Source: Candidatus Cacconaster stercorequi
Lineage (GTDB): Bacteria > Bacillota > Clostridia > Oscillospirales > Oscillospiraceae
Assembly (NCBI GenBank): GCA_018064925.1
Contig: JAGHUH010000001.1
Span: 1-54,855, forward strand
Direction of reading: 5' to 3'
DNA: 54,855 nt
Shown here: piece by piece, positions 2,996 to 42,040 of the stretch
Layout: each line of letters starts with the position of its first letter
Numbering within the stretch: the first letter of the stretch is position 1
Position numbers and translations under genes: made by a program
The notes under the pieces: model-generated
Told to the model about the DNA's origin: nothing
Seen by the model: only the letters and a program-made list of their open reading frames with translations
Database searches by the model: none

Positions 2996-5584
2996 TTACT
3001 TCTTCCGTGCGTAGGGCGTATTCTCCAGCGGCAGGGACAACCGGCGCTGACCGTCCAACCGGAAGTAGGCATCCGCAATAGCAGGTGCCGTGGGAATTGC
3101 GGTGATCTCGCCGATGCCGATGGCGCCGCCGGCCACATTCAGTCCCGGCTTCTCCACCACGATGGCCTCGATCTCCTCGGGAATCTGATTGGCACGGAAC
3201 AAACCCAGCATGCCGTATTTCGCGGTGGGTCGGCAATTCTCGTCAATGGGAAATCGCTCTGTCAGGGCATAGCCCAGCGACATGACCACGCCACCCTCGA
3301 TCTGCCCCTCGATACTCAGTGGATTGATGGCCTTGCCCACATCGTGCGCGGCCACCAGCTTTTTGACCTTGCCGGTCTGCTTGTCCAGCACACACATCTG
3401 CGTGGCGTAGCCGTAGGCCACATGGCTGATGGGATTGGGCACCTTGGAACCCAACGGATCGGTCTTTGCGTAGTATTCGCCGTAATACTCCGTCCCCTTC
3501 AGCTCCTCCAGCGTCTTCCCTTCCATGGCCTCCACCAGCTTTTTACAGGCACGGCGGCAGGCCTCACCGGTCACCAGCGTCTGGCGTGAGCCGGAGGTAT
3601 CGCCGGAATCGGGTGCGATCCATGTGTTGCTGCGCTCATAGACGATGTCGTCGCGCTTCAGTCCCGTGCAGGTCACCACGGTCTGCATCAGTACGGTGCC
3701 GAGACCCTGACCGATGCAGGATGCGCCGGTATGGATATGCACCTTACCGTCCTGCTCCACCAGCAGCTTGCAGCGTCCGTAGTCGGGCAGGCCAACGCCC
3801 ACGCCGGCATTCTTCATAGCGCAGGCAAGTCCCACCGGCTCACCGGCCGCCACTGCCGCATCGTAAACGGGCTTAATGGCCTCCAGCGTTTCCACAAGAC
3901 CCGTGGACTCGTCCACGATCTGTCCGTTGGGCAGCGTACCGCCGGGACGGATGGCATTGCGATAGCGGATCTCCCAGGGAGAGATCCCCACTTTATCCGC
4001 CATCATATTCAGCAGCGTTTCCATGCAGAAACAGGTCTGTGTCACGCCAAAGCCGCGGAACGCACCGGCAGGCGGATTGTTGGTATAGTAGGCGTGGCCC
4101 TCGATCTTGAAATTCTCATAGGCGTAGGGGCCCGCGGCATGGGTGCAGGCACGCTCCAGCACCGGGCCGCCCAGCGAGGCAAACGCACCGGTATCGGCTA
4201 CCACATCGGCGATCACACCCTGAATGATGCCGTTTTCATCGCATCCCAGTGTAAAGCTCATATCCATGGGATGGCGCTTGGGGTGCACCAGAATGGATTC
4301 CTGCCGGCTTAGCTTAAACTTGACCGGACGGCGCAGAATATAGCACAAAAGCGCCGCATGGTGCTGAACGGACATATCCTCCTTGCCGCCAAAGCCGCCG
4401 CCCACCAGCATATTCTGCACCTGGCAGTGGTCATAATCCACGCCCAGCATGGCCGAGCACTCATGCTGCGTGGTATGGGTACTCTGGTCGGTGGTCAGCA
4501 GACGGATGCCGCCATTGTCAATAGGAACGGCAACGCAGCACTCCGGCTCCAAAAAAGCGTGCTCCGTCCATGGCGTGTGGAAGGTTTCGGAAATCACATA
4601 TTTCGATCCGGCAATCGCGCCCTCGGCATCACCGCGGGAGATGCGGCGCACGGCCTGCACATTGTCCAGATCGTGTTCAAAGACCTTGGGCGCACCGGGT
4701 GCCATGGCCTCCTGCGGATTGTGCACAGGCGGCAGCGGCTCATACTCCACCTTGATGAGTGCCTTGGCCTTTTCCACGGTCTCCTGATCCTCTGCGCAGA
4801 TCAGCGCCACAGCCTCGCCCAGATAGTGGATCACCTCGCCGATCTCTGCCAGCGTGGGCTGATCCTTCTTGATATGACCAATATAATTCTGGCACGGCAC
4901 ATCCTTGGCCGTTGCAATGTAAATCACGCCGGGCAGCGCCATCGCTTCCCGCGTATCAATGGACAGCAAACGGGCGCGGGCATACGCGCTGCGCAGGGCA
5001 CCGCCGTAGACCATACCCTTGAGGTACACATCGTCGGGATACTGACCGTAGCCCTGTACCTTTTCCGCCACATCCAAACGATGCATCCGGCTGCCCACCT
5101 GCCAGTCATCAGCAGAAGGTGCGGGGATCTTGCCCTCACGGAAAATCTTCGCCGCCAAAAGAATGCCGTCGATGATCTTCACATAGCCGGTACAGCGGCA
5201 GATATTATTGCGGATGGCAAAGGCTGCCTCCTCACGGGTGGGATTGGGATTGGTGTCGATGAGTCCTTTGGCAGAAATTACCATGCCGGGAATGCAGAAA
5301 CCGCACTGCACCGCGCCTGCCTCACCAAAGGCAAAGGTAAAGACCTCTTTCTCCCAATCGCTGAGACCCTCTACGGTCAGGATCGTTTTTCCCTCCAGCT
5401 TATCGGTCTGTGGAACACATGCCTTGGTGGGCTTTCCGTCAATCAGCACATGGCAGGTGCCGCAGGCGCCTTCGCTGCAGCCATCCTTCACGGAGGTCAG
5501 ATGCAGCTCATCGCGCAAATAGCGCAGCAGCTTCTGATTTTTTTCCACCGTCACTGTTTTGTCGTTGACAATAAATGTTGCCAT
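2996..5584 (-). CDS. Selenium-dependent xanthine dehydrogenase type fusion ([2Fe-2S] plus Mo domains)
   Basis: The 862-residue protein fuses an N-terminal iron-sulfur unit to a molybdenum catalytic unit. A plant-type [2Fe-2S] site (Cys36, 41, 44, 56) is followed by an all-helical [2Fe-2S] site (Cys94, 97, 129, 131), then Mo-binding motifs GGGFGGKED and FRGFGVTQ, and GAIGIGEIT with the candidate catalytic Glu at about 826. No FAD domain is present. This architecture and length match the family annotated as selenium-dependent xanthine dehydrogenase (E. coli XdhD-like), in which selenium is a labile Mo ligand rather than selenocysteine; the frame has no in-frame TGA. The promoter TTGCAG-17-TATAAT and an AAGGAGAT ribosome site precede it. 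Its selenium dependence is inferred from the family and from yqeC, ssnA and ygfK nearby. Confidence 0.88.
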   Translation of the reverse strand: MATFIVNDKTVTVEKNQKLLRYLRDELHLTSVKDGCSEGACGTCHVLIDGKPTKACVPQTDKLEGKTILTVEGLSDWEKEVFTFAFGEAGAVQCGFCIPGMVISAKGLIDTNPNPTREEAAFAIRNNICRCTGYVKIIDGILLAAKIFREGKIPAPSADDWQVGSRMHRLDVAEKVQGYGQYPDDVYLKGMVYGGALRSAYARARLLSIDTREAMALPGVIYIATAKDVPCQNYIGHIKKDQPTLAEIGEVIHYLGEAVALICAEDQETVEKAKALIKVEYEPLPPVHNPQEAMAPGAPKVFEHDLDNVQAVRRISRGDAEGAIAGSKYVISETFHTPWTEHAFLEPECCVAVPIDNGGIRLLTTDQSTHTTQHECSAMLGVDYDHCQVQNMLVGGGFGGKEDMSVQHHAALLCYILRRPVKFKLSRQESILVHPKRHPMDMSFTLGCDENGIIQGVIADVVADTGAFASLGGPVLERACTHAAGPYAYENFKIEGHAYYTNNPPAGAFRGFGVTQTCFCMETLLNMMADKVGISPWEIRYRNAIRPGGTLPNGQIVDESTGLVETLEAIKPVYDAAVAAGEPVGLACAMKNAGVGVGLPDYGRCKLLVEQDGKVHIHTGASCIGQGLGTVLMQTVVTCTGLKRDDIVYERSNTWIAPDSGDTSGSRQTLVTGEACRRACKKLVEAMEGKTLEELKGTEYYGEYYAKTDPLGSKVPNPISHVAYGYATQMCVLDKQTGKVKKLVAAHDVGKAINPLSIEGQIEGGVVMSLGYALTERFPIDENCRPTAKYGMLGLFRANQIPEEIEAIVVEKPGLNVAGGAIGIGEITAIPTAPAIADAYFRLDGQRRLSLPLENTPYARKK

Positions 5585-20194: not shown

Positions 20195-20224
20195 AAACCG
20201 ACCGCCTGAAGGCGGTCGGTTTTT
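20195..20224 (+). terminator. Terminator after upp
   Basis: The 12-bp perfect stem AAACCGACCGCC with TGAA loop is followed by a T-run, 13 bp after the upp stop. It closes the housekeeping block before the purine island. Confidence 0.9.
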
Positions 20225-20286
20225 GATATCCTGTGCATTTTTCATCAAAATCCATATATATTTTTATGGCGAGATATAATTTCCTG

Positions 20287-20315
20287 TTGCTTTTTATCAG
20301 AAATTCCTGTAAAAT
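20287..20315 (+). promoter_or_regulatory. Promoter of the ssnA-ygfK transcript
   Basis: TTGCTT (20287-20292), a 17-bp spacer and TAAAAT (20310-20315) predict a start near 20322. That leaves about 165 nt of leader before the ssnA ATG. Confidence 0.65.
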
Positions 20316-20320
20316 ACTTT

Positions 20321-20431
20321 ATAACAATCCAAGATTGGTAGCTGTAAGGAAGTGCTTCGCGCACGGGCTGCAACTATCACTCGGCTCCGCGCTTGAGTGT
20401 TTCAAACCAACATGGTTTGAAACATTTTTTC
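20321..20431 (+). promoter_or_regulatory. Structured leader with terminator before ssnA (candidate riboswitch or attenuator)
   Basis: The leader folds by eye into consecutive elements. The first is a long stem 20336-20345/20370-20379 (one mismatch, two wobbles) enclosing GTGC-TTCGC-GCAC at 20352-20364. The second stem, CACTC/GAGTG at 20378-20382/20395-20399, shares two bases with the first. The third is a perfect 11-bp terminator hairpin GTTTCAAACCA/TGGTTTGAAAC (20399-20423), followed by T6 at 20425-20430. The neighbouring stems share bases, so alternative folds are possible. TTGGT at 20335-20339 could also pair with ACCAA in the terminator arm. The 20183-20488 gap contains no convincing gene. 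I do not recognise a known riboswitch class. Confidence 0.55.
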
Positions 20432-20488
20432 ATTATCGGGGCAAATTGATAGAAAATCTTGAGAACAATTCGAAAGGAGATTTTTATC

Positions 20489-21832
20489 ATGTATCTGGTT
20501 ACCAACGGTCGTCTGATCACCCGTGACAGCGAGGGCAAGGGTTATTATGAGCACGGCGCCGTGGCCTTCGAGGGCACCAAGATCGTGGAGGTCGGCGAGG
20601 AAGCCGCCCTGCGTACAAAATACGCTGACGCCGAGATCATCGACGCCAAGGGCGGCGTGATCATGCCCGCCTTTATCAACGCCCACACCCATATCTACTC
20701 CGCTTTGGCACGCGGCCTGTCCATCGTAGGCAACAATCCCACCAATTTCTATGAGGTGCTGGACGGTACCTGGTGGGCCATGGATCGTAAGCTGACGCTG
20801 GAGGGCTCCCGCCGCAGCGCTGATGCGCTGTATATGGACTGCATCAAGCAGGGTGTGACCACCATCTTCGACCACCACGCCGCCTATGCCGAAATCCCCG
20901 GCTCCCTGTTCCAGATCGGCGAGAGCGCCAAGAAGTTCGGCATCCGCTCCTGCCTGTGCTACGAGGTTTCTGACCGCGACGGCGAGGAGAAGTGCCTGCA
21001 GGCTATCAAGGAGAACGCCGACTGGATCACCTACTGTGAGCAGCAGAAGGATCCCATGCTGGCTGCTATGTTCGGTGGCCACGCGCTGTTCACCATATCT
21101 GATAAGACCTTTGACCGCATGGTGGAGGCCAACAACGGCCGTACCGGCTATCACATTCATGTGTCCGAGGGCATGAACGATGTGTATGACTCCCTGCAGA
21201 ACTACGGCCGCCGTCCCGTGCAGCGTTTGCAGGATCACGGCATTCTGGGCGATAAGACCATCCTGGGCCACTGCATCCATGTGAACACCGCCGAGATGGA
21301 CATCATCCGTGAGACCAACACCATGGTGGTCAACAACCCCGAATCCAACATGGGCAACGCCATCGGCATCTGCCCCGTGCTGCAGCTTTATAAGCGCGGC
21401 ATCCTGCTGGGTATGGGTACCGACGCCTACACCAACGATATGCTGGAGTCCCTGAAGGTGGCCCTGTGCTCCCAGCGCAGCCAGAACTGCCTGCCCAATG
21501 TGGCATGGTGCGAGGTCACCGATATGCTGTTCAAGAACAATGCCAAGATCGGCGAGAAGTACTTCCCCACCCAGCTGGGCGTGCTGAAGGCCGGCGCTTC
21601 CGCCGACATCATCGTCATGGACTACAAGACGTTCACTCCCTTCTCCGACGAGAACATTGACGGGCACATGATCTTCGGTATGACCGGCCGGCAGGTGGAG
21701 ACCACCATCGGTAACGGTAAGATTCTGATGAAGGATCGCGAGCTGGTGGGCATCGACGAAGAAGCTGAGAACGCTCACATCCTCGAGTACGCCAAGAAGT
21801 TCTGGGGCAGCCTGAATAACCGCGAATATTAA
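20489..21832 (+). CDS. ssnA: Putative aminohydrolase SsnA
   Basis: SsnA is an amidohydrolase-superfamily protein tied to selenium-dependent purine catabolism, with a proposed deaminase or ring-opening role on a reduced purine. Metal ligands are visible in INAHTHIYS, HIHVSEG, GHCIHV and GTDAYTND over 447 residues. I chose the ATG at 20489, which has AAAGGAGA at a good distance; an earlier in-frame ATG at 20459 has no ribosome site. It is followed 26 bp later by ygfK, its usual partner, and preceded by a terminator-bearing leader. The family assignment is strong, but the exact reaction is inferred. Confidence 0.9.
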   Translation: MYLVTNGRLITRDSEGKGYYEHGAVAFEGTKIVEVGEEAALRTKYADAEIIDAKGGVIMPAFINAHTHIYSALARGLSIVGNNPTNFYEVLDGTWWAMDRKLTLEGSRRSADALYMDCIKQGVTTIFDHHAAYAEIPGSLFQIGESAKKFGIRSCLCYEVSDRDGEEKCLQAIKENADWITYCEQQKDPMLAAMFGGHALFTISDKTFDRMVEANNGRTGYHIHVSEGMNDVYDSLQNYGRRPVQRLQDHGILGDKTILGHCIHVNTAEMDIIRETNTMVVNNPESNMGNAIGICPVLQLYKRGILLGMGTDAYTNDMLESLKVALCSQRSQNCLPNVAWCEVTDMLFKNNAKIGEKYFPTQLGVLKAGASADIIVMDYKTFTPFSDENIDGHMIFGMTGRQVETTIGNGKILMKDRELVGIDEEAENAHILEYAKKFWGSLNNREY

Positions 21833-21858: not shown

Positions 21859-24810
21859 ATGTCTGAAAAAATGGTTCCCATTCCCTTTAAGTCTTTGATG
21901 AACTGGGTGGTCACCGAATACGCCAACAGCGGCGAGATCTTCGGCATCCACAAGACCTATAAGGCATCCGGAAAGTCTCTGCCCATCTTCGGTGAGCGCA
22001 TTGAGACTCCCTTCGGCCCCGCCGCAGGCCCCAACAGCCAGTTGGCGCAGAACATCATTGCCGCCTATGTGGCCGGTGCCCGCTTCTTCGAGGTCAAGAC
22101 CGTACAGAAGATGGACGGCGCCGATCTGGCTGCCTGTGTCCCTCGCCCCTGCATTCTGGCCGCTGATGAGGGCTACAACCAGGAGTGGTCCACCGAGCTG
22201 ACCGTTCCGCAGGCCATGAACGAATATATCAAGGCATGGTGCGCCCTGAAGGTCATGTCCAAGGTCTACGGCCTGGGCGATCCCAACGGCTTCGTGTTCA
22301 ATATGTCCGTGGGTTATGATCTGGAGGGCATCAAGGGCGAAAAGGTCAACACCTATCTTGACGGCATGATGGATGCCACCAAGACCGAGATCTGGGGCGA
22401 GTGCCTGTCCGTTCTGAAGGAGCTGTTCCCCCAGGAGAGCGACTATATTGACGCCATCTCCCCCCGTGTGTCCGGCAGCGTCACCGTTTCCACCCTGCAC
22501 GGCTGTCCTCCCGATGAGATCGAGCGTATCGCGTCCTATCTGATCTCCGAAAAGCACCTGCACACCTTTGTGAAGTGCAACCCCACCATTCTGGGTTACG
22601 AAACCGCACGCAAGACCTTGGATTCCATGGGCTATGACTACATCGTGTTCGACGAGCACCACTTCAACGAGGATCTGCAGTGGGCCGATGCCGTTCCCAT
22701 GTTTGAGCGCCTCCAGGCACTGGCTGACAAGAACGGTCTGGAGTTCGGTCTGAAGCTTAGTAACACCTTCCCCGTTGATACCACCCGCGGCGAGCTGCCC
22801 AATGACGAGATGTATATGTCCGGCCGCTCCCTGTTCCCCCTGACCATTGAGATGTGCCACCGCATCTCCCGCCAGTTCAAGGGCAAGATGCGGATCTCCT
22901 TCGCCGGCGGCGCCGAGTATTTCAATTGCGACAAGCTGTTTGCCGCCGGCATCTGGCCCATTACCATGGCCACCACCATCCTCAAGCCCGGCGGATACAA
23001 CCGGATGCTGCAAATGGTGGAAAAGGTGGAGTCCATGCCCTACAAGGCATTCTGCGGCACCGACACCGAGGCCATCTGCGCCCTGTCCACCGCTTCTCAC
23101 ACCGATTATCACCATGTCAAGCCCATCAAGCCTCTGCCCTCCCGCAAGAGTGACAAGCAGGTGCCTTGGATCGACTGCTTCTCCGCTCCCTGTCAGGGCG
23201 GCTGCCCCATTGAGCAGGATATCCCCGAATACATGGAGCTGGTGCGCAAGGGACTCTATGGCCCTGCTCTGAAGCTGATCACCGAAAAAAATCCTCTGCC
23301 TTTCCTGACCGGCACCATCTGCGCACATCGCTGCCAGAACAAGTGCTCCCGCAACTTCTATGAGGAGTCCGTTCAGATTCGCGACACCAAGCTGGTGGCA
23401 GCCAAAAACGGCTACAATGCGCTGATGGCCTCCATCAAGATGCCCGAAAAGGTCGAGGGCAAGAAGGCCGCCATCATCGGCGGCGGCCCCACCGGTATTG
23501 CTGCTGCCTATTTCCTGGGCCGCGCCGGCATCGAGACCACCATTTTCGAGCGCGAGGCCTGCCTGGGTGGCGTGCCCCGTCATGTGATCCCCTCTTTCCG
23601 TATTGCCAACGAGACCATCGAGAAGGATATCGCTCTGATGCAGAAGTACGGTGTCGAGGTCAAGTGCGGTGCACCTGCCCCCTCCGTTGACGAACTGAAG
23701 AAGATGGGTTATACCCACATCCTGTTTGCCGTTGGTGCCTGGAAGCCCGGCAAACTGGATATCGAAGGCAACATCGCCGGTGCCATTGCGTGGATGAAGG
23801 GCGTTAAGGCCGGTGAGATCAAGGCCGACGGCAATGTGGTTGTCGTTGGCGGCGGCAACACCGCCATGGACGCTGCCCGCCTTGCCAAGCGCAGCGGTGC
23901 CGAGAGCGTAACCATTGTCTATCGCCGCACCAAGAAGTATATGCCCGCTGACGAGCATGAGCTGGCTCTGGCCATCGCTGACGGCGTTGCCTTTGCTGAA
24001 CTGGCTGCTCCCGTGAAGCAGGCTGACGGCAAGCTGGTTTGCGAGAAGATGGTTCTGGGTGAGGCTGACGCTTCCGGTCGCCGCAGCCCCGTCGCTACCG
24101 GCGAGATGTTCGAGATCCCCTGCGATCTGGTGATCTCCGCTGTGGGCGAGCAGGTGGACGATGCCCTGATGGCCGCCAACGGCATTGAGGTGGACAAGAA
24201 GGGTCGTCCCTCCTTTAAGACCAACATCGAGGGCGTATACGCCGCCGGCGACGCCAAGCGCGGTCCCGCCACCGTGGTGGAGGGCATTGCCGATGCCACC
24301 GCCTTTGCCGCAGAAGTGATCGGCGAGTCCTATGTCTACGATATTCCCGCCGAGGCCTACATCACTACCGCAGACGCCATTGCCAAGAAGGGCATCCTGA
24401 AGATGTCCGAGTGCGCCTGCTGCGAGGGTGATCGCTGCCTGCAGTGCTCCACCGTTTGCGAAAACTGCGTGGATTCCTGCCCCAACCGCGCCAATGTGGC
24501 CATCAAGCTGGCGGACGGCAGTCACCAGATCGTCCATGTGGACAAGATGTGCAACGAGTGCGGCAACTGCACCCAGTTCTGCCCCTATGCCTCCGAGCCC
24601 TGCCACGACAAGTTCACCCTGTTCCAGACCGCTGAGGACATGGTGGATTCCAACAACGCCGGCGTTCTGTTCCTGGGCGGCAATATGGTGCGCGTCCGCA
24701 CCTTCGGTGAGCCCAAGGATTACGATCTGAGCAAGGATAACGATCTCCCCTCCGAGCTGGAGACCCTGATCGTCACCATTCGCGACAAGTACAGCTACCT
24801 ATACGAATAA
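21859..24810 (+). CDS. ygfK: YgfK-type flavin and iron-sulfur oxidoreductase
   Basis: The 983-residue protein, once annotated as putative selenate reductase, combines three parts. An N-terminal dihydroorotate-dehydrogenase-like half (about 1-430) is followed by a glutamate-synthase small-subunit-like half with a Cys-rich entry region (CFSAPCQGGCP...CAHRCQNKC). That half also has an FAD loop AAIIGGGPTGIAAAYFLGRA and an NAD(P) loop VVVVGGGNTAMDAARLAKRS. A C-terminal ferredoxin-like tail (CLQCSTVCENC..., CNECGNCTQFCPYA) could hold [4Fe-4S] clusters. This resembles dihydropyrimidine dehydrogenase organisation and fits reduction of an oxidised purine ring. It follows ssnA by 26 bp and ends at a strong terminator. 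Confidence 0.92.
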   Translation: MSEKMVPIPFKSLMNWVVTEYANSGEIFGIHKTYKASGKSLPIFGERIETPFGPAAGPNSQLAQNIIAAYVAGARFFEVKTVQKMDGADLAACVPRPCILAADEGYNQEWSTELTVPQAMNEYIKAWCALKVMSKVYGLGDPNGFVFNMSVGYDLEGIKGEKVNTYLDGMMDATKTEIWGECLSVLKELFPQESDYIDAISPRVSGSVTVSTLHGCPPDEIERIASYLISEKHLHTFVKCNPTILGYETARKTLDSMGYDYIVFDEHHFNEDLQWADAVPMFERLQALADKNGLEFGLKLSNTFPVDTTRGELPNDEMYMSGRSLFPLTIEMCHRISRQFKGKMRISFAGGAEYFNCDKLFAAGIWPITMATTILKPGGYNRMLQMVEKVESMPYKAFCGTDTEAICALSTASHTDYHHVKPIKPLPSRKSDKQVPWIDCFSAPCQGGCPIEQDIPEYMELVRKGLYGPALKLITEKNPLPFLTGTICAHRCQNKCSRNFYEESVQIRDTKLVAAKNGYNALMASIKMPEKVEGKKAAIIGGGPTGIAAAYFLGRAGIETTIFEREACLGGVPRHVIPSFRIANETIEKDIALMQKYGVEVKCGAPAPSVDELKKMGYTHILFAVGAWKPGKLDIEGNIAGAIAWMKGVKAGEIKADGNVVVVGGGNTAMDAARLAKRSGAESVTIVYRRTKKYMPADEHELALAIADGVAFAELAAPVKQADGKLVCEKMVLGEADASGRRSPVATGEMFEIPCDLVISAVGEQVDDALMAANGIEVDKKGRPSFKTNIEGVYAAGDAKRGPATVVEGIADATAFAAEVIGESYVYDIPAEAYITTADAIAKKGILKMSECACCEGDRCLQCSTVCENCVDSCPNRANVAIKLADGSHQIVHVDKMCNECGNCTQFCPYASEPCHDKFTLFQTAEDMVDSNNAGVLFLGGNMVRVRTFGEPKDYDLSKDNDLPSELETLIVTIRDKYSYLYE

Positions 24811-25080: not shown

Positions 25081-26454
25081 ATGAAACGACTGTTCCGCGG
25101 CGGTACGGTGGTATCCGGCAAGGGTACCCGCCGAGCTGATGTGCTCATTGAAGACGAAAAGATCATCAAAGTCGGCCGCAACATTATGGATCCTGCGGCT
25201 CAAATCATTGATGTGACCGGTATGCTCCTGATGCCCGGCTTCATCGACGCACACACCCATTTCGATCTGGATGTCTGCAACACCACCACCGCCGATGATT
25301 TCACCACCGGCTCCCGTGCGGCGCTGCGAGGCGGCACCACTACCGTAATCGACTTTGCCTGCCCCAACAAGGGAGAAACGCTGCACGACGGTCTGAAGCT
25401 GTGGCACGAAAAGGCCGATGGCAAGACCTACTGCGACTATGGTTTCCACATGACCATCGACGATTGGAACGAGACCATTGCGCGCGAGATCGACGATATG
25501 TACGCCGAGGGAATTTCCTCTTTCAAGATGTACATGACCTATCCGGCCATGATGATCGGCGACGAGTTGATGTACCATGCCCTGAAAAAGCTGAAGGAAA
25601 AGGGCGGCATCTGCGGCGTACACTGCGAAAACAGTGGCGTCATTGATGCGCTGGTATCCGAAAAGAAGGCGCAAAATCAGATGGGCGTTTCCTCCCATCC
25701 CGAAACCCGTCCGGACTATCTGGAGGCCGAGGCCGTCAGCCGTTTGCTGCGTATCGCCCAGGCCGTGGATATTCCCGTAGTGATCGTGCATCTGACCAAT
25801 GCCGCCGCTTTGAAAGAGGTGGAGGCCGCCCGCAAACGCGGTCAGAAAGTCTATGTGGAGACCTGCCCCCAGTATCTGGTGCTGGACAACACCGTCTATT
25901 ACAATGAGGATTATCTGGAGGCCGCCAAATTCGTCTGCTCTCCCCCCATCCGCACCCCCGCTGACCAGAAGGCTCTGTGGTCCGGTCTGCGCCGCGGCGA
26001 GATTCAGACCATCTCCACCGATCACTGCTCCTTTACGCTGGCGCAGAAGGAGGCCGGGCGCGGCGATTTTACCAAGATCCCCGGCGGTATTCCCGGCGTA
26101 GAGACCCGCGGCGAACTGATCTATACCGCCGGCGTCACCACCCGCAAGATCAGTCTGGCCACCATGTGCAAGGCACTCAGTGAGAACCCCGCCAAGCTCT
26201 ACGGTATGTATCCACGCAAGGGCATCATCGCAAAGGGTGCCGACGCCGATATTGTAATCTATGATCCCCAGGCCGACCATGTGATCCGCGCGGAGGACAT
26301 GGTGGCCAATGTAGATTACAACCCCTACGAGGGTTTCATCACCCGCGGCAGTATCGCCCAGGTGTGGCTGCGCGGCAATCTGGCTGTGGATCACGGCACC
26401 GTGGTGGCAGCGTGTAACGGTCAATATATCGCCCGCGGCAAAAACGCTCTCTAA
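25081..26454 (+). CDS. hydA: Dihydropyrimidinase/hydantoinase family hydrolase
   Basis: The 457-residue cyclic amidohydrolase opens hydantoin or dihydropyrimidine-like rings. The binuclear metal site is visible: IDAHTHFDLD, the carboxylated-lysine context SSFKMYMTY, a His in GVHCEN, a His in VIVHLTN and the Asp in ISTDHCSF. The ATG at 25081 has CGGAGG. In the island this would be the HyuA/HydA step acting on an imidazolone- or hydantoin-like purine product. It has its own promoter region, and 33 bp separate it from the next gene. Confidence 0.93.
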   Translation: MKRLFRGGTVVSGKGTRRADVLIEDEKIIKVGRNIMDPAAQIIDVTGMLLMPGFIDAHTHFDLDVCNTTTADDFTTGSRAALRGGTTTVIDFACPNKGETLHDGLKLWHEKADGKTYCDYGFHMTIDDWNETIAREIDDMYAEGISSFKMYMTYPAMMIGDELMYHALKKLKEKGGICGVHCENSGVIDALVSEKKAQNQMGVSSHPETRPDYLEAEAVSRLLRIAQAVDIPVVIVHLTNAAALKEVEAARKRGQKVYVETCPQYLVLDNTVYYNEDYLEAAKFVCSPPIRTPADQKALWSGLRRGEIQTISTDHCSFTLAQKEAGRGDFTKIPGGIPGVETRGELIYTAGVTTRKISLATMCKALSENPAKLYGMYPRKGIIAKGADADIVIYDPQADHVIRAEDMVANVDYNPYEGFITRGSIAQVWLRGNLAVDHGTVVAACNGQYIARGKNAL

Positions 26455-27754: not shown

Positions 27755-28996
27755 TTATTCCACGGTCACGCCGCGCTGGGCAAAGCCCTTCACCATCAAG
27801 TCGAGATCCGGCTCGATATGCAATGGCTCACCGGCGGATTTGATGGCATTTGCCACATCCTTCAAACCGTTGCCGGTCACCACGGAAACCACGGTAGCGT
27901 CCTTCTCGATCAGACCCTCTTCGCAGGCCTTCTTCAGAGCAGCAGTACCGGTGACACCGGCAGGCTCACCAAACACGCCGCAGGTGCGTCCCAGCAGACG
28001 CTGGGCGGCCAGAATCTCCTCGTCGGTGACATTCACGGCAATGCCGCCCGACTCACGAATGGCCATCAGCGCCTTATCGGCGTTGCGGGGCACGCCCACG
28101 GAGATGGAATCGGCGATGGTATTCTCCTCCATGGGATACCAGTCCTCACCCGTCTGGATGGCGCGGTTCAGCGGATAGCAGCCATAGGACTGGGCGGAGA
28201 TCAGACGGGGCAGCTTGTCAATGAAGCCGATAGCGTACAGATCCTTGAAGCCCTTCCACACGCCGGCAATGGTGCAGCCGTCACCCACGGAAATGGCCAG
28301 ATAGTCGGGCATCTCCCAATTCAACTGCTCGGCGATCTCCAGCGCCACGGTCTTTTTGCCCTCGGACAAATAGGGATTGATGGCCGCGTTGCGATTGTAC
28401 CAGCCGTACTTCTCAATGGCGGCGGCAGACATTTTGAAGGTCTCCTCGTAGTTGCCCTTGACGGAGATCACATTGGCGCCGAAGATCATTAGCTGCGCCA
28501 CCTTGCCCTTGGGGGCGCGGTCGGGGACAAAGATATAGGTCTTCAGTCCGGCGGCAGCGGCGTTGCCCGCCAGAGAAGATGCGGCATTGCCGGTAGAGGA
28601 ACAGGCGATGGTCTTGGCACCCGCCTCCATTGCCTTCGCCACGGCCATGGCGCTGGCGCGATCCTTCAGGGATGCGGTAGGATTCTGTCCGTCATCCTTC
28701 ACCCACAGCTTGCGGATACCCAGCATCTCAGCCAGACGGGGCTCCTCGTACAGGGGGCTCCAGCCCACACGCAGAGGGGTATCGGGCGTGGTTTCTTCCA
28801 CAGGCAGCAGCTCGCGGTAACGCCACATGGAACGGTTTTCCCGCGCCGCCAACTTTTCCTTGGTCAGGACGGTCTTGATATAGTCATAATCGTAAACGAT
28901 ATCCAGAATACCACCGCATTCGCAGTTGGTCAGGTCGGGAGTAGCCTCATAGGTCTTGCCGCACTTGACACACTTGCCGTATTTGACATTCTTCAT
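27755..28996 (-). CDS. Threonine synthase-like PLP enzyme (fold type II)
   Basis: The 413-residue protein has an N-terminal zinc-ribbon-like four-Cys motif (CVKCG, CECGG), then a fold-type II PLP core. The Schiff-base lysine is in NPTASLKDRAS, a substrate loop in CSSTGNAASSLAG and a phosphate loop near SVGDGCTIAG. By family it is annotated as threonine synthase. Here it is the last gene of a three-gene operon with a regulator and a second PLP enzyme, inside a purine island. It may therefore act as a beta-elimination or replacement enzyme on a diamino or hydroxy amino acid rather than in threonine biosynthesis. That alternative is inference. Confidence 0.82.
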   Translation of the reverse strand: MKNVKYGKCVKCGKTYEATPDLTNCECGGILDIVYDYDYIKTVLTKEKLAARENRSMWRYRELLPVEETTPDTPLRVGWSPLYEEPRLAEMLGIRKLWVKDDGQNPTASLKDRASAMAVAKAMEAGAKTIACSSTGNAASSLAGNAAAAGLKTYIFVPDRAPKGKVAQLMIFGANVISVKGNYEETFKMSAAAIEKYGWYNRNAAINPYLSEGKKTVALEIAEQLNWEMPDYLAISVGDGCTIAGVWKGFKDLYAIGFIDKLPRLISAQSYGCYPLNRAIQTGEDWYPMEENTIADSISVGVPRNADKALMAIRESGGIAVNVTDEEILAAQRLLGRTCGVFGEPAGVTGTAALKKACEEGLIEKDATVVSVVTGNGLKDVANAIKSAGEPLHIEPDLDLMVKGFAQRGVTVE

Positions 28997-31408: not shown

Positions 31409-32806
31409 ATGGATTTTGAAGCGATTAAAAAAGCTGCTGAGGGTTATCGCCCCGCTATGGCAAAGTTCCTGCGTGACATGATTGCCATCCCTTCCGAGTC
31501 CTGCGAAGAGGAGCTGGTGGTCAAGCGCATCGCTCAGGAGCTGACCGCTCTGGGCTACGACAAGGTCGAGTTCGACAAGCTGGGCAATGTGATCGGCTGG
31601 ATGGGCAACGGTGACAAGATCATCGCCATTGACTCTCATATTGATACCGTCGGCATCGGCAACATTGAAAACTGGACTGCCGATCCTTATAAGGGTTACG
31701 AAGAAGACGAGATCATCTACGGCCGCGGCGGCTCCGATCAGGAGGGCGGTATGGCTTCCGCAGCTTACGGCGTAAAGATCATGAAGGATCTGAACCTGAT
31801 CCCCGAGGGCTACAAGATGATGGTCGTCGGCTCCGTGCAGGAGGAGGACTGCGACGGTATGTGCTGGCAGTCCATCGTCAACGAGTACTTCAATGGTCCC
31901 GAGGATGCCCGCAGCAAGATCGAGTTTGTCATCTCCACCGAGCCCACCGACGGCGGTATCTATCGCGGTCACCGCGGCCGTATGGAGATCCGCGTGGATG
32001 TCCACGGTGTTTCCTGCCACGGCTCCGCCCCCGAGCGCGGCGACAACGCCATTCACAAGATGGCTGAGATCATTGAGAATGTCCGCGACCTGAACGAAAA
32101 TCCCGCTGATGGTTCCACCGAGATCAACGGTCTGGTGAAGATGCTGGATCCTAAGTTCAACCCCGAGCATTGGGAAGATGCCCGCTTCCTGGGCCGCGGT
32201 ACCTGCACTACCTCCCAGATTTTCTATACCTCCCCTTCCCGCTGCGCTGTGGCTGACAGCTGCGCCATCTCCATCGACCGCCGCATGACCGCCGGCGAGA
32301 CCTATCTGTCCTGCCTGAAGGAGATCGAGGAGCTGCCCGCCTGCAAGAAATACGCCAAGGATGTCAAGGTTTCCATGTACATGTATGACCGTCCTGCATG
32401 GACCGGTCATGTCTACGAGACCGAATGCTTCTTCCCCACTTGGATCAACAAAGAGTCCGCCCCCCATGTGCAGGCTCTGATCGACGCCCATCACGCTCTG
32501 TGGGGTGACGAGCGCCTGTACGCTGATGACATTGCCAAGGAAAAGCGCATCGGTCGTCCTCTGACCGATAAGTGGACCTTCTCCACCAACGGCGTGTCCA
32601 TCCAGGGCCGCTACGGCATCCCCTGCGTCGGCTTCGGCCCCGGTGCCGAGTCTCAGGCACACGCTCCCAACGAGATCACATGGAAAAAGGATCTGGTGAC
32701 CTGCGCCGCTCTGTACGCCGCTGTTCCCATGCTGTACAAGCCCGAGAACAAGGACGGCTCCGCTACCTCCTTCCGTCAGGAGCTGACCGGCAACGATATC
32801 AAGTAA
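31409..32806 (+). CDS. ygeY: YgeY family M20-type hydrolase
   Basis: The 465-residue M20 metallopeptidase-family protein has the metal motifs [11 protein letters not shown] and [10 protein letters not shown], with the catalytic Glu in [11 protein letters not shown] and the [19 protein letters not shown] dimerisation region. It belongs to the YgeY group named for its linkage to selenium metabolism. It is thought to hydrolyse an amide or acyl bond of an open purine product. The ATG follows GGAGGT. It is the first gene after the strong promoter and palindrome, and 102 bp before ygeW. Confidence 0.92.
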
Positions 32807-32908: not shown

Positions 32909-34102
32909 ATGAGCAAGACTGTTGAACTGGCCCGTCATCTGAGCACGCTGAACATCAACAATATGTATAAGACCGATTTCTATTGGACCTGGGACAAGAC
33001 CGATGACGAAATCGACGCCGTTTTCACCGTGGCTGATGCGCTGCGCGATTTGCGTGAGCGCAACAAGTCCACCCGCGTGTTCGACAGCGGCCTGGGCATC
33101 TCCATCTTCCGTGATAACTCCACCCGTACCCGTTTCTCCTTCGCTTCCGCCTGCAACCTGCTGGGTCTGGAGGTACAGGATCTGGACGAGAAGAAGTCCC
33201 AGATCGCTCACGGCGAGACCGTGCGTGAAACTGCAAACATGGTGTCCTTCATGGCCGATGTCATCGGTATCCGCGATGATATGTTCATCGGCGAGGGCCA
33301 CAAGTATCAGAAGACCTTCATGGACGCTACCCGTGAGGGTTACCGCGAGGGTATTCTGGAGCAGCAGCCCACTCTGGTCAACCTGCAGTGCGATGTGGAT
33401 CACCCCACCCAGTGCATGGCTGATATGCTGCATGTTATCCATTACTTCGGCGGTGTGGAGAACCTGAAGGGCAAGAAGGTCGCTATGACCTGGGCCTATT
33501 CTCCCTCCTATGGCAAGCCCCTGTCCGTGCCTCAGGGCGTGATCGGCCTGTTCACCCGCTTCGGCATGGATGTCACGCTGGCTCATCCCGAGGGCTACGA
33601 TGTGATGCCCGAGGTGGAAGAGGTCGCCCGCAAGAACTGCGAGAAGTACGGTTCCACCTTTACCAAGACCAACGACATGAAGGAAGCTTTCAAGGACGCC
33701 GATATCGTGTATCCCAAGTCCTGGGCCTCTTTTGCCGCCATGGAAGAGCGCACCAAGCTGTACGCTGCCGGTGATCAGGCCGGTATCGACGCTCTGGAGC
33801 AGCGCCTGCTGGCTCAGAACGCCCAGCACAAGGATTGGGCCTGCACCGAAGAAATGATGAAGCTGACGCGCGACGGCAAGGCTCTGTATCTGCACTGCCT
33901 GCCCGCCGACATCACTGGTCTGAGCTGCGCCGAGGGCGAAGTGGACAACTCCGTGTTCGACCGTTACATCGTTCCCCTGTACAAGCAGGCATCCTTCAAG
34001 CCCTACATCATCGCTGCCATGATCTTCCTGGCTCAGGTCAAGGATCCCGTCAAGGCCCTGATGGAGATGGACGCTTCCAACGATACCCGCAAGGTATTCT
34101 GA
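32909..34102 (+). CDS. ygeW: Knotted carbamoyltransferase YgeW
   Basis: The 397-residue transcarbamylase-family protein has the carbamoyl phosphate loop DNSTRTRFSFASA, the HPTQCMADML motif and the C-terminal LHCLPAD, as in ornithine-type carbamoyltransferases. The YgeW group has a deep trefoil knot. Here it would transfer the carbamoyl group of a ureido intermediate to phosphate, releasing a small diamino acid and carbamoyl phosphate. The ribosome site is AAGGAG. An intrinsic terminator separates it from arcC, which would use the carbamoyl phosphate. Confidence 0.93.
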   Translation: MSKTVELARHLSTLNINNMYKTDFYWTWDKTDDEIDAVFTVADALRDLRERNKSTRVFDSGLGISIFRDNSTRTRFSFASACNLLGLEVQDLDEKKSQIAHGETVRETANMVSFMADVIGIRDDMFIGEGHKYQKTFMDATREGYREGILEQQPTLVNLQCDVDHPTQCMADMLHVIHYFGGVENLKGKKVAMTWAYSPSYGKPLSVPQGVIGLFTRFGMDVTLAHPEGYDVMPEVEEVARKNCEKYGSTFTKTNDMKEAFKDADIVYPKSWASFAAMEERTKLYAAGDQAGIDALEQRLLAQNAQHKDWACTEEMMKLTRDGKALYLHCLPADITGLSCAEGEVDNSVFDRYIVPLYKQASFKPYIIAAMIFLAQVKDPVKALMEMDASNDTRKVF

Positions 34103-34189: not shown

Positions 34190-35125
34190 ATGAGTAAAAG
34201 AATTGTCATCGCTCTGGGCGGCAATGCGCTGGGCACCACGCTGGAAGAGCAATTCAACGCTGTGCAGGTCACTTCCAAGGCCATCGTCGACCTGATCGAA
34301 GAGGGCAATGATGTGGTCATCGTTCACGGAAACGGCCCTCAAGTTGGCATCATCAACAATGCCATGGTGTCTCTGACCCATGAGGATCCCACTCAGGGCT
34401 TTACCCCCCTGTCTGTCTGCGGCGCCATGAGCGAAGCCTATATCGGCTATGACCTGCAAAACGCTATCCGCGAGGAGCTTCTGAATCGCGGCATGAGCAA
34501 GCCCGTTGCCACCGTTGTCACCCAGACGGTGGTGGATCAGACCGATCCCGCTTTCCAGAATCCCACTAAACCCATCGGCAAGTTTGTCACAGCAGAAGAT
34601 GCCAAAGAGATAGCCGCCAAGACCGGCTATCTGATGAAGGAGGATGCCGGCCGCGGTTGGCGCCGTTATGTGGCGTCCCCCAAGCCCATCTCCATTGTGG
34701 AGTGGCCCGCCATCAAGATTTTGTCCGAAAACGGTGCCGTGGTGATCGCCTGCGGCGGCGGCGGTATTCCCGTAACGGCAGAGGGCAATCATCTGCACGG
34801 TGCCGCAGCCGTGATCGACAAGGACTTTGCCGCAGAGCTGCTGGCAGAGCTGCTGGAGGCCGATATGCTGATCATTCTGACCGCTGTGGAGAAGGTTTCC
34901 ATCAACTACAAAAAGCCCAATCAGGCGGATTTGTCCGAGCTGACCCCCGCCGATGCCGCAAAGTATATTGCCGAAGGTCAGTTTGCCCCCGGCTCCATGC
35001 TGCCCAAGGTAGAGGCCGCTGTGAAGTTCGCTCAGTCCAGATCTGACCGCACCGCGCTGATCACCCTGTTGAGCAAGGCCAAGGACGGCATCGCCGGTAA
35101 GACCGGAACCCATGTTCACCAGTAA
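34190..35125 (+). CDS. arcC: Carbamate kinase
   Basis: ArcC converts carbamoyl phosphate and ADP to ATP, ammonia and CO2. The 311-residue protein has the family block VIALGGNALG, VIVHGNGPQVGI and VIACGGGGIPV. This gives the island its substrate-level phosphorylation step after YgeW. It follows a terminator and ends 73 bp before a very long hairpin. E. coli has a paralogous carbamate kinase, yqeA, in the equivalent cluster. Confidence 0.96.
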   Translation: MSKRIVIALGGNALGTTLEEQFNAVQVTSKAIVDLIEEGNDVVIVHGNGPQVGIINNAMVSLTHEDPTQGFTPLSVCGAMSEAYIGYDLQNAIREELLNRGMSKPVATVVTQTVVDQTDPAFQNPTKPIGKFVTAEDAKEIAAKTGYLMKEDAGRGWRRYVASPKPISIVEWPAIKILSENGAVVIACGGGGIPVTAEGNHLHGAAAVIDKDFAAELLAELLEADMLIILTAVEKVSINYKKPNQADLSELTPADAAKYIAEGQFAPGSMLPKVEAAVKFAQSRSDRTALITLLSKAKDGIAGKTGTHVHQ

Positions 35126-40684: not shown

Positions 40685-42040
40685 ATGTCTACTCTACTCA
40701 TCAAAAATATCGCGCAGCTCGTCACCTGCGATGACAGCGACCGGGTACTTACCAACGCTGACATCTACTGTCAGGATGGCTTTATCAAACGCATCGGTCA
40801 GGGTCTGGATGTTGCCGCCGACGAAGTCATTGATGCCAGCCATATGCTCTGCTATCCGGGTCTTGTCAATACGCACCATCATCTCTATCAGGTGTTTTCC
40901 CGCAATCTACCGCAGGTGCAGAACATGGAGCTGTTCGACTGGCTGAAAACGCTGTATGAGATTTGGAAAAATCTGGATCAGGATGTCATCCGTCTCAGCA
41001 GTCTCACCGGCATGGGCGAGCTGATGAAGCACGGCTGTACCACCTGCTTTGACCACCACTATGTTTTCCCCGCCAACGCCGGTGACCTGATCGGCACACA
41101 GTTTGCCGCCGCCGATGAGCTGGGCATTCGGATGTATTGCAGCCGCGGCAGCATGGACCTCAGCGTCAAGGACGGCGGTCTGCCTCCGGACAGCGTGGTG
41201 CAGACGGTGGACGAGATCATGCGCGACTCCGCCCGCTGCATTGAAACCTATCACGATTCCTCCTACGGTGCCATGCACCGCGTGGCGCTGGCTCCCTGTT
41301 CTCCCTTCTCCGTGTCCGCCGATCTGCTGCGCCAAAGTGCCGTGCTGGCTCGTCAGTATGGCGTGCGCCTACACACTCATCTGTGCGAGACCAAGGATGA
41401 GGAACGGTTTATGCTGGAGCGTGAGGGCATCCGGCCTCTGGAATATATGGAGCGGTTGGGCTGGATCGGCGACGATGTGTGGTACGCCCACGGCATCCAC
41501 TTCAACGATGAGGAACTGCGGGTGCTGGCCAAAACCGGCACCGGTGTGGCCCACTGCCCCATCAGCAATATGAAGCTCTCTAGCGGCATTGCCCGCATCC
41601 CGGAAATGTTGGAGCTGGGCGTTCCCGTGGGTCTTGCGGTAGACGGCAGTGCTTCCAATGACGGTTCCTCGCTGATGGAGGAGCTGCGGGTGGCCTATCT
41701 GCTGCACCGTCTGAATTCCAGCCGTCAGGCACCCTCCGGCTATGATATTCTGAAGCTGGCCACCCGGGGCAGCGCCCGTCTGTTGGGCCGCGACGACATC
41801 GGGCAGCTCGCCGTGGGCAAGTGCGCCGACCTCTTTATGATCGACTCCCGCCGGCTGGAACTGGTGGGCTCCTGTATCGACGCCAAATCCGTGCTGGGCA
41901 CCGTGGGCGTCCGCGGCGCCGTGGATTATACCGTGATACACGGCCGTGTCACCGTTAAGAATGGTCATCTAACTACCGTGGACGAAGAAAAGGTGGCATT
42001 TGACGCCAACCGCAAGTGTATGGAATATTTGAATCAGTAA
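40685..42040 (+). CDS. 8-oxoguanine deaminase-type amidohydrolase
   Basis: The 451-residue amidohydrolase closely resembles bacterial 8-oxoguanine deaminases of the SsnA/AtzA relatives. Shared blocks are VNTHHHLYQ, HGCTTCFDHHYVFP, SRGSMDLSVKDGGLPPDSV, ALAPCSPFSVS, LHTHLCET, YAHGIHFN and AVDGSASNDGSS. The enzyme would make urate from 8-oxoguanine, an entry substrate for the island. It has the AAAGGAG ribosome site and lies between a terminator and another hairpin, so it is probably its own transcript. Isoguanine or another aminopurine is also possible. Confidence 0.88.
   Translation: MSTLLIKNIAQLVTCDDSDRVLTNADIYCQDGFIKRIGQGLDVAADEVIDASHMLCYPGLVNTHHHLYQVFSRNLPQVQNMELFDWLKTLYEIWKNLDQDVIRLSSLTGMGELMKHGCTTCFDHHYVFPANAGDLIGTQFAAADELGIRMYCSRGSMDLSVKDGGLPPDSVVQTVDEIMRDSARCIETYHDSSYGAMHRVALAPCSPFSVSADLLRQSAVLARQYGVRLHTHLCETKDEERFMLEREGIRPLEYMERLGWIGDDVWYAHGIHFNDEELRVLAKTGTGVAHCPISNMKLSSGIARIPEMLELGVPVGLAVDGSASNDGSSLMEELRVAYLLHRLNSSRQAPSGYDILKLATRGSARLLGRDDIGQLAVGKCADLFMIDSRRLELVGSCIDAKSVLGTVGVRGAVDYTVIHGRVTVKNGHLTTVDEEKVAFDANRKCMEYLNQ

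Follow-up and report, generated by a model that had tools for sequence, protein, structure and literature searches.

The leader in front of ssnA and ygfK in the DNA analysed here (the window: 54,855 nucleotides of Candidatus Cacconaster stercorequi, assembly GCA_018064925.1) is identified by its sequence as an ssnA RNA, a member of the already catalogued Rfam family RF03031. We consider it fairly probable that this leader is an ON riboswitch which controls anaerobic uric acid breakdown by transcription attenuation, with uric acid or yanthine as the likeliest ligand. The family itself was known, and the expression platform, the sign of regulation, the regulon and the ligand proposal are added here as predictions. 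Within positions 20287-20488, a promoter is followed by a short structured RNA, two hairpins and an intrinsic terminator, all located 5' of ssnA:

20287-20315, + strand: promoter, with -35 TTGCTT (20287-20292), a 17-nt spacer and -10 TAAAAT (20310-20315), read from the sequence
20332-20379, + strand: ssnA RNA (RF03031), predicted aptamer; cmscan 71.7 bits, gathering threshold 37.3, E 4e-18
20333-20341/20374-20382, + strand: P0, with one U-C mismatch (20335/20380)
20339-20343/20366-20370, + strand: P1 (UAGCU/GGCUG), in the Rfam consensus and part of the predicted ligand-bound fold
20352-20355/20361-20364, + strand: P2 hairpin, in the Rfam consensus
20378-20384/20393-20399, + strand: P3, predicted antiterminator (CACUCGG/UUGAGUG)
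20395-20430, + strand: intrinsic terminator, stem 20395-20409/20413-20427 and U tract to 20430; its 5' arm shares GAGUG with P3
20472-20480, + strand: Shine-Dalgarno stretch of ssnA, read from the sequence
20489-21832, + strand: ssnA (putative aminohydrolase SsnA); NF005540 612.6 bits, cut-off 444

An earlier note on this DNA had described the same promoter, a long stem enclosing a hairpin (which fits P0 around P2), a second stem sharing bases with the first (which fits P3) and a perfect 11-bp stem with a T run ahead of the ATG (which lies inside the terminator). Its view that expression would need read-through is supported. The note had called the element an unclassified riboswitch or attenuator; the riboswitch or attenuator layout stands, and "unclassified" gives way to RF03031, which was returned by the Rfam search that the note had proposed.

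The RF03031 alignment spans all 48 model positions with zero non-standard pairs, its score exceeds the gathering threshold, and no other Rfam family reached that threshold anywhere in the window. The GCUGNAA.G.A internal loop and the CACGGGCUG 3' half are present together with P1 and P2, and the RNA is positioned upstream of ssnA, so that sequence, P1/P2 fold, cis-regulatory type and gene neighbour all match the Rfam model. The model differs in that it stops at position 48 and has P1 and P2 as its only helices, whereas P0, P3, the terminator, their competition and the predicted ON sign are features of the present analysis. The ssnA motif was reportedly first listed among the candidate RNAs of Weinberg et al. 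2017. It is an orphan family for which we know of no published ligand, and a literature search on ssnA RNA, RF03031 and a urate or yanthine riboswitch returned no relevant paper, although such papers may exist elsewhere.

Purine riboswitches (the guanine, adenine and xanthine variants) are leader RNAs that sense purines, some of them through a terminator/antiterminator exchange, and their aptamer is a three-way junction. The window leader is predicted to resemble them in sensing a purine from a leader RNA and in the exchange, but it lacks the three-way junction and its core sequence is unrelated by inspection. The earlier impression that the fold is unlike the purine riboswitch agrees with Rfam, where the purine riboswitch model was matched neither at gathering across the window nor in 20250-20520 when E values up to 1 were allowed. 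The NMT1 xanthine riboswitch, whose model we assumed to be present in Rfam 15, also gave no match at either threshold. According to PMC7373994, NMT1 shares with the present RNA an association with purine-catabolism genes and has xanthine and uric acid as ligands, but it is proteobacterial, OFF and likely to act on translation.

Conservation was assessed in leaders collected from 192 loci, those from the pattern scan being among the matches listed. The core was found in 188 of the loci (L032, L033, L051 and L052 were left out), giving 159 unique leaders and then 156 after three chance pattern matches outside Bacillota were dropped (L127, L136 and L164, in a gammaproteobacterium, a gemmatimonadete and an Opitutae record). 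All the numbers below count leaders and not independent events. A leader was considered as window type if CUAUC occurs no more than 16 nt past the core, as it does in 92 of the 156.

Transcription would start near 20322. The position of the -10 is conserved among leaders of the same type: counted from the core GCTG, a TATAAT-like hexamer starts at -30 or -29 in 72/92 and a -10-like hexamer at -32 to -28 in 82/92, with the window's own at -31. A promoter scan which required at least four of six matches in each hexamer omitted the ssnA promoter, where the -35 matches three of six. The ATG of ssnA is located 109 nt past the end of the RF03031 match. Folding of 20324-20432 gave -35.9 kcal/mol (z -3.4), an energy equalled by none of 200 dinucleotide shuffles and mostly owed to the terminator. 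The aptamer half (20324-20400) was observed to be no better than its shuffles (z -0.13, with 88 of 200 as good), and its reality therefore rests on the covariance-model match and on conservation.

The hairpin could also be read as the plain terminator of the upstream gene upp, followed by an unrelated downstream promoter, since upp is encoded on the same strand and ends about 150 nt before the RNA. The earlier note had itself listed an ordinary terminator of an upstream gene as grounds for rejecting its proposal. This reading is extremely improbable, as a separate GC-rich hairpin with a T run follows upp at 20195-20225, ahead of the promoter (located by eye and absent from the terminator scan), and upp lies upstream in just 20 of the 141 leaders with enough sequence, while ssnA starts within 500 nt 3' of the motif in 148 of the 159 unique leaders. 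The 11 leaders lacking an ssnA call comprise the three chance matches outside Bacillota, four with too little sequence and four that precede other genes.

The attenuation helices themselves were found to be conserved. P1 is short and its core pairs are near-invariant, with pairs 10-37, 11-36 and 12-35 fixed by the search pattern in pattern-derived loci, and its variable pairs 9-38 and 8-39 provide modest support for the helix. Pair 9-38 is formed in all 155 leaders that could be scored (A-U in 118, G-U in 35 and G-C in 2; one of the 156 is too short) and pair 8-39 in 126, where the remainder includes 15 A-G and 9 U-U. An outward extension of P1 is not claimed, as pairs 7-40 (73/155) and 6-41 (60/155) are formed in a minority. 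The closing pair of P2 was observed to be C-G in 141 leaders, U-A in nine, U-G in four and G-C in one (n=155). A terminator with an alternative stem is also the classic layout of trp-type attenuation by a leader peptide, but this explanation is very unlikely here. The conserved core is 29 or 30 nt long (30 in 20/156), a variation by one base that would shift any reading frame, and it is the paired and loop bases that are conserved, not codons.

P0 shares 20339-20341 with P1 and 20378-20382 with P3 and therefore excludes both. Since CUAUC is the selection rule, it dictates the 3' side of P0 pairs 1-5, and the information lies in the 5' side: TGRTA is located directly 5' of GCTG in 86 of the 92 leaders with CTATC versus 2 of the 63 without. 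Pairs 1-5 are formed in 92/92 and pair 6 in 90/92, with pair 4 being G-U or A-U and U-A predominating at pair 6, where G-U occurs three times. At pair 7, A-U or G-C was found in 30 leaders and a mismatch in 62, the window included, of which the U-C mismatch accounts for 42 of the 92. Over pairs 4-8, 389 of 460 cells are paired, whereas 1000 re-dealt sets averaged 371 and did not exceed 379.

For P3 and the terminator, counts refer to 86 leaders as the terminator was not located in six of the 92. The 3' strand of P3 overlaps the 5' arm of the terminator by at least 2 nt in 85/86 and its 5' strand overlaps the 3' strand of P0 by at least 3 nt in 82/86, while the best helix is not of the P3 type in four. 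P3 changes as a unit, for example from CACUC/GAGUG to CACUGGG/CCCAGUG, and to CACCUAUC/GAUAGGUG in Oscillibacter-type leaders. The median P3 score was reached by 4.7% of letter-shuffled 3' segments. In the window, P3 displaces only the lower terminator pairs and about ten A-U-rich pairs remain. In the terminator listing, the "direct" rows of the window-type leaders L005, L008 and L133 are over-extended hairpins, and weak terminators are listed for L109 (-3.3) and L120 (-6.5). P1, P0, P3 and the terminator thus form a chain in the 92 window-type leaders in which each helix excludes its neighbour. The mutually exclusive structures tied to an expression signal that are expected of a riboswitch were found here at the level of sequence and computed folds.

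A different antiterminator, between TTGGT near the 5' end and the terminator arm, had been suggested in the earlier note. This pairing (TTGGT:ACCAA) is not conserved: the equivalent 5-mer can pair somewhere in the terminator in 17/86 leaders (10 of them at the window's place) versus 49% of shuffled terminators. The conserved antiterminator is P3, through CACUC/GAGUG.

Nearest-neighbour energies, which are estimates for the ligand-free RNA, give a balance of the kind expected of a ligand-tipped switch. Before the terminator closes, the P1 state was calculated at a median of +0.6 kcal/mol relative to the P0 state (quartiles -1.3 and 1.7) and is the lower in 28/86 leaders; unconstrained folds at this stage show P0 in 48 and P1 in 19 of the 86. 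After the terminator, P0 with the terminator is favoured over P1 with P3 in 86/86 by a median of 6.7 kcal/mol, and the unconstrained lowest-energy fold contains P0 and the terminator in 71/86 and P1 in one. The window leader is not among the 71, as its own unconstrained fold has the terminator and neither P0 nor P1, with an alternative 5' pairing that beats P0 plus the terminator by 1.1 kcal/mol.

In the proposed mechanism, P0 (GAUUGGUAG/CUAUCACUC) would form first when the ligand is absent and sequester CUAUCACUC. This would leave the stretch beginning with GAGUGUUUC free to form the terminator, and RNA polymerase would stop about 58 nt before ssnA. With the ligand present, the aptamer (P1 and P2) would be stabilised and P1 would take UAG away from P0, which would free CACUC to pair with GAGUG and form P3. 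P3 would in turn take apart the lower end of the terminator stem, allowing the polymerase to read through into ssnA-ygfK. We infer direct binding of a small molecule by the RNA, most likely uric acid or yanthine (2,8-dioxopurine), the reduction product of uric acid and substrate of YgfK and SsnA.

The ON sign is also suggested by leaders of other types. A hairpin scan of the 64 non-window-type leaders gave 28 terminators built in part from the final conserved bases of the aptamer, and 25 after doubtful cases were removed (L151, which is spurious, and L117 and L125, where only outer pairs reach the motif). In these approximately 25, the 5' arm of the terminator takes in the conserved 3' half of the aptamer. 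Another 32 have a terminator further down or merely abutting P1, and four are without one strong enough. The 25 leaders together with L041, which shares three core bases, made up a thermodynamic test set of 26, in which the terminator formed with the native motif was stronger than that with any of 15 motif shuffles in 21 (counted by eye; the others are L047, L048, L134, L144 and L169, the last without overlap), and the best hairpin at the same T run without the motif was weaker than -8 kcal/mol in 21/26. A contiguous-helix test of direct overlap gave a weak result, with 10/63 leaders versus 5.3% in shuffles, and 1/92 of the window type versus 3.1%. In the approximately 25 leaders with shared bases, folding of the aptamer and formation of the terminator exclude each other, which predicts ON. 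The window-type relay is predicted to have this sign too, provided that P1 is part of the bound state as it is in Rfam. Among the 32 leaders with a distal or abutting terminator, 15 have an antiterminator of the type GGAUGGAC/GUCCAUUC that begins at G39; no consistent P0 was seen there, and no sign is predicted for them. A P0-like helix of the Flavonifractor type (UCCAU/AUGGA) was seen by eye in a few leaders, is absent from others such as L118, and was dropped.

The opposite sign would result if P0 stacked below the ligand-bound aptamer and hid CACUC from P3, so that the ligand would cause termination as a product feedback. Such a layout is usual for many OFF riboswitches and the outer P0 pairs (20333-20338) could coexist with P1, but an OFF switch is rather improbable here. 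The inner pairs UAG/CUA clash with P1 yet are formed in 92/92, the CUA side being fixed by the type selection, and in the leaders that share bases between aptamer and terminator a bound aptamer would prevent termination. Moreover, ssnA, ygfK, ygeW, ygeX and ygeY are reported in PMC12990295 (citing Liu 2023) to be induced by urate in distant gut bacteria by RNA-seq.

A switch responding to a compound of urate breakdown is consistent with the genes downstream. YgfK is encoded next in 40 of the 42 loci having more than 4.6 kb downstream, and NCBI models label ssnA as a putative selenium-metabolism protein or aminohydrolase. The following genes were identified in the window besides ssnA:

21859-24810, + strand: ygfK; TIGR03315 1279.6 bits, cut-off 835.3
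25081-26454, + strand: hyuA-like D-hydantoinase/dihydropyrimidinase; TIGR02033 567.3 bits, cut-off 393
31409-32806, + strand: ygeY; NF009555 590.3 bits, cut-off 321
32909-34102, + strand: ygeW; TIGR03316 768.5 bits, cut-off 500
34190-35125, + strand: carbamate kinase; TIGR00746 379.2 bits, cut-off 358
2996-5584, - strand: selenium-dependent xanthine dehydrogenase, outside the control of this RNA; TIGR03311 1237.7 bits, cut-off 830
40685-42040: 8-oxoguanine deaminase, 3' of a Bmp-type ABC transporter; PRK08203 577.4 bits, cut-off 532

This gene set agrees with the reductive route of uric acid breakdown that was reported in 2025. According to PMC12507026, XdhD reduces urate to yanthine, YgfK and SsnA convert yanthine to ureidomethyl-hydantoin, and HyuA, YgeW and YgeY perform later steps. 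Two xanthine-dehydrogenase-type proteins, one of them above the selenium-dependent cut-off, are encoded about 15 kb away on the opposite strand. YgeX was not identified in the window, where a PALP-type gene (27755-28996) scores as threonine synthase. The 8-oxoguanine deaminase would channel 8-oxoguanine into urate.

The earlier suggestion of a purine breakdown product as the likely signal is supported. With the pathway now worked out (PMC12507026), the list of ligands is reduced to a handful of compounds, among which yanthine is favoured because the only RNA copy in the window genome precedes the steps after the xanthine-dehydrogenase-type reductase. As a tentative proposal, to which we give slightly less than even weight, ssnA RNA would be the first class of riboswitches specific for uric acid or yanthine, acting as an ON switch that gates anaerobic urate breakdown in gut Oscillospiraceae. 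If right, it would explain how many gut bacteria switch on urate removal, with a bearing on gout and on urate biosensors.

Further copies of the RNA point to other targets. Two Intestinimonas genomes carry three (G624) and two (G625) matches, located before ssnA, before hyuA (G624) and before an NfnAB-like pair (both), and in two further genomes (G626 and G627) the sole match sits before a DUF6198 membrane protein:

L112:2283-4519 and L208 1510-3049, - strand: NfnAB-like pair with ssnA RNA upstream, two Intestinimonas genomes
L177:2928-3566, + strand, and L155 near 6250, - strand: DUF6198 target, with an open frame in L177

In G625, the first gene of the pair is a sulfide/dihydroorotate dehydrogenase-like FAD/NAD protein (393.7 bits, cut-off 220) and the second is the NADPH-dependent glutamate synthase GltA (588 bits, cut-off 472). 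The G624 match ahead of the pair scores 36.8 bits, slightly below the RNA cut-off of 37.3. A MocA-like cytidylyltransferase, scoring below its NCBIfam cut-off, is encoded about 770 nt beyond hyuA in G624. The DUF6198 protein (Pfam 62.9 bits, cut-off 27) is YczE-like, yet far below the YczE cut-off; no long open frame was seen at its position in L155, and a divergent ssnA is located about 1.8 and 3.1 kb away in G626 and G627.

Such targets may indicate missing parts of the pathway, for example the electron donor of its first enzyme, which is named as undiscovered in PMC12990295. The NfnAB-like pair is a candidate electron-supply module and the DUF6198 protein a possible membrane component of the urate pathway; if ssnA RNA responds to uric acid or yanthine, the former would be the missing electron supply and the latter a transport component. 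The extra targets are explained better by a pathway-wide signal than by a gene-specific one. The signal could also reach the leader through a protein, either an antiterminator or a repressor, or the fold could sense a general cue such as Mg2+ or the speed of RNA polymerase. A small and near-invariant core, here of about 30 nt, is also typical of protein-binding RNA hairpins, and conservation by itself cannot separate the two. One RNA family placed before separate urate-pathway genes in one genome resembles a metabolite riboswitch, although a protein could do likewise, and we regard a protein or general cue as unlikely while giving it real weight.

Direct binding of uric acid or yanthine remains our preferred reading. 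RF03031 is matched once in the window's own genome, and, with that genome included, in 26/32 genomes of the genus, in 49/200 of the family (45 above cut-off) and in 4/398 of a phylum sample (two above cut-off). A pattern scan of named genomes gave at least 118 stretches, and among the matches listed most are Oscillospiraceae, Clostridia or Bacillota records, many from animal guts. Carriers include Flavonifractor plautii ATCC 29863, Oscillibacter valericigenes, Pseudoflavonifractor, Intestinimonas and Gemmiger. SsnA scores above its cut-off in 59 of the 200 same-family genomes, and by a cross-count made by eye the RNA is present in 46 of these 59 and absent from 13, while 46 of the 49 RNA-carrying genomes have a full SsnA. 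Of the other three, two have a piece of SsnA directly 3' of the RNA at a contig end and the remaining match (23 bits) is probably due to chance. Two window-type leaders, L031 and L168 (the latter from Bacillota UR.bin92), were observed to have a longer spacer before the terminator. The genome with L031 belongs to a different family within the phylum, and joint transfer of leader and operon is possible.
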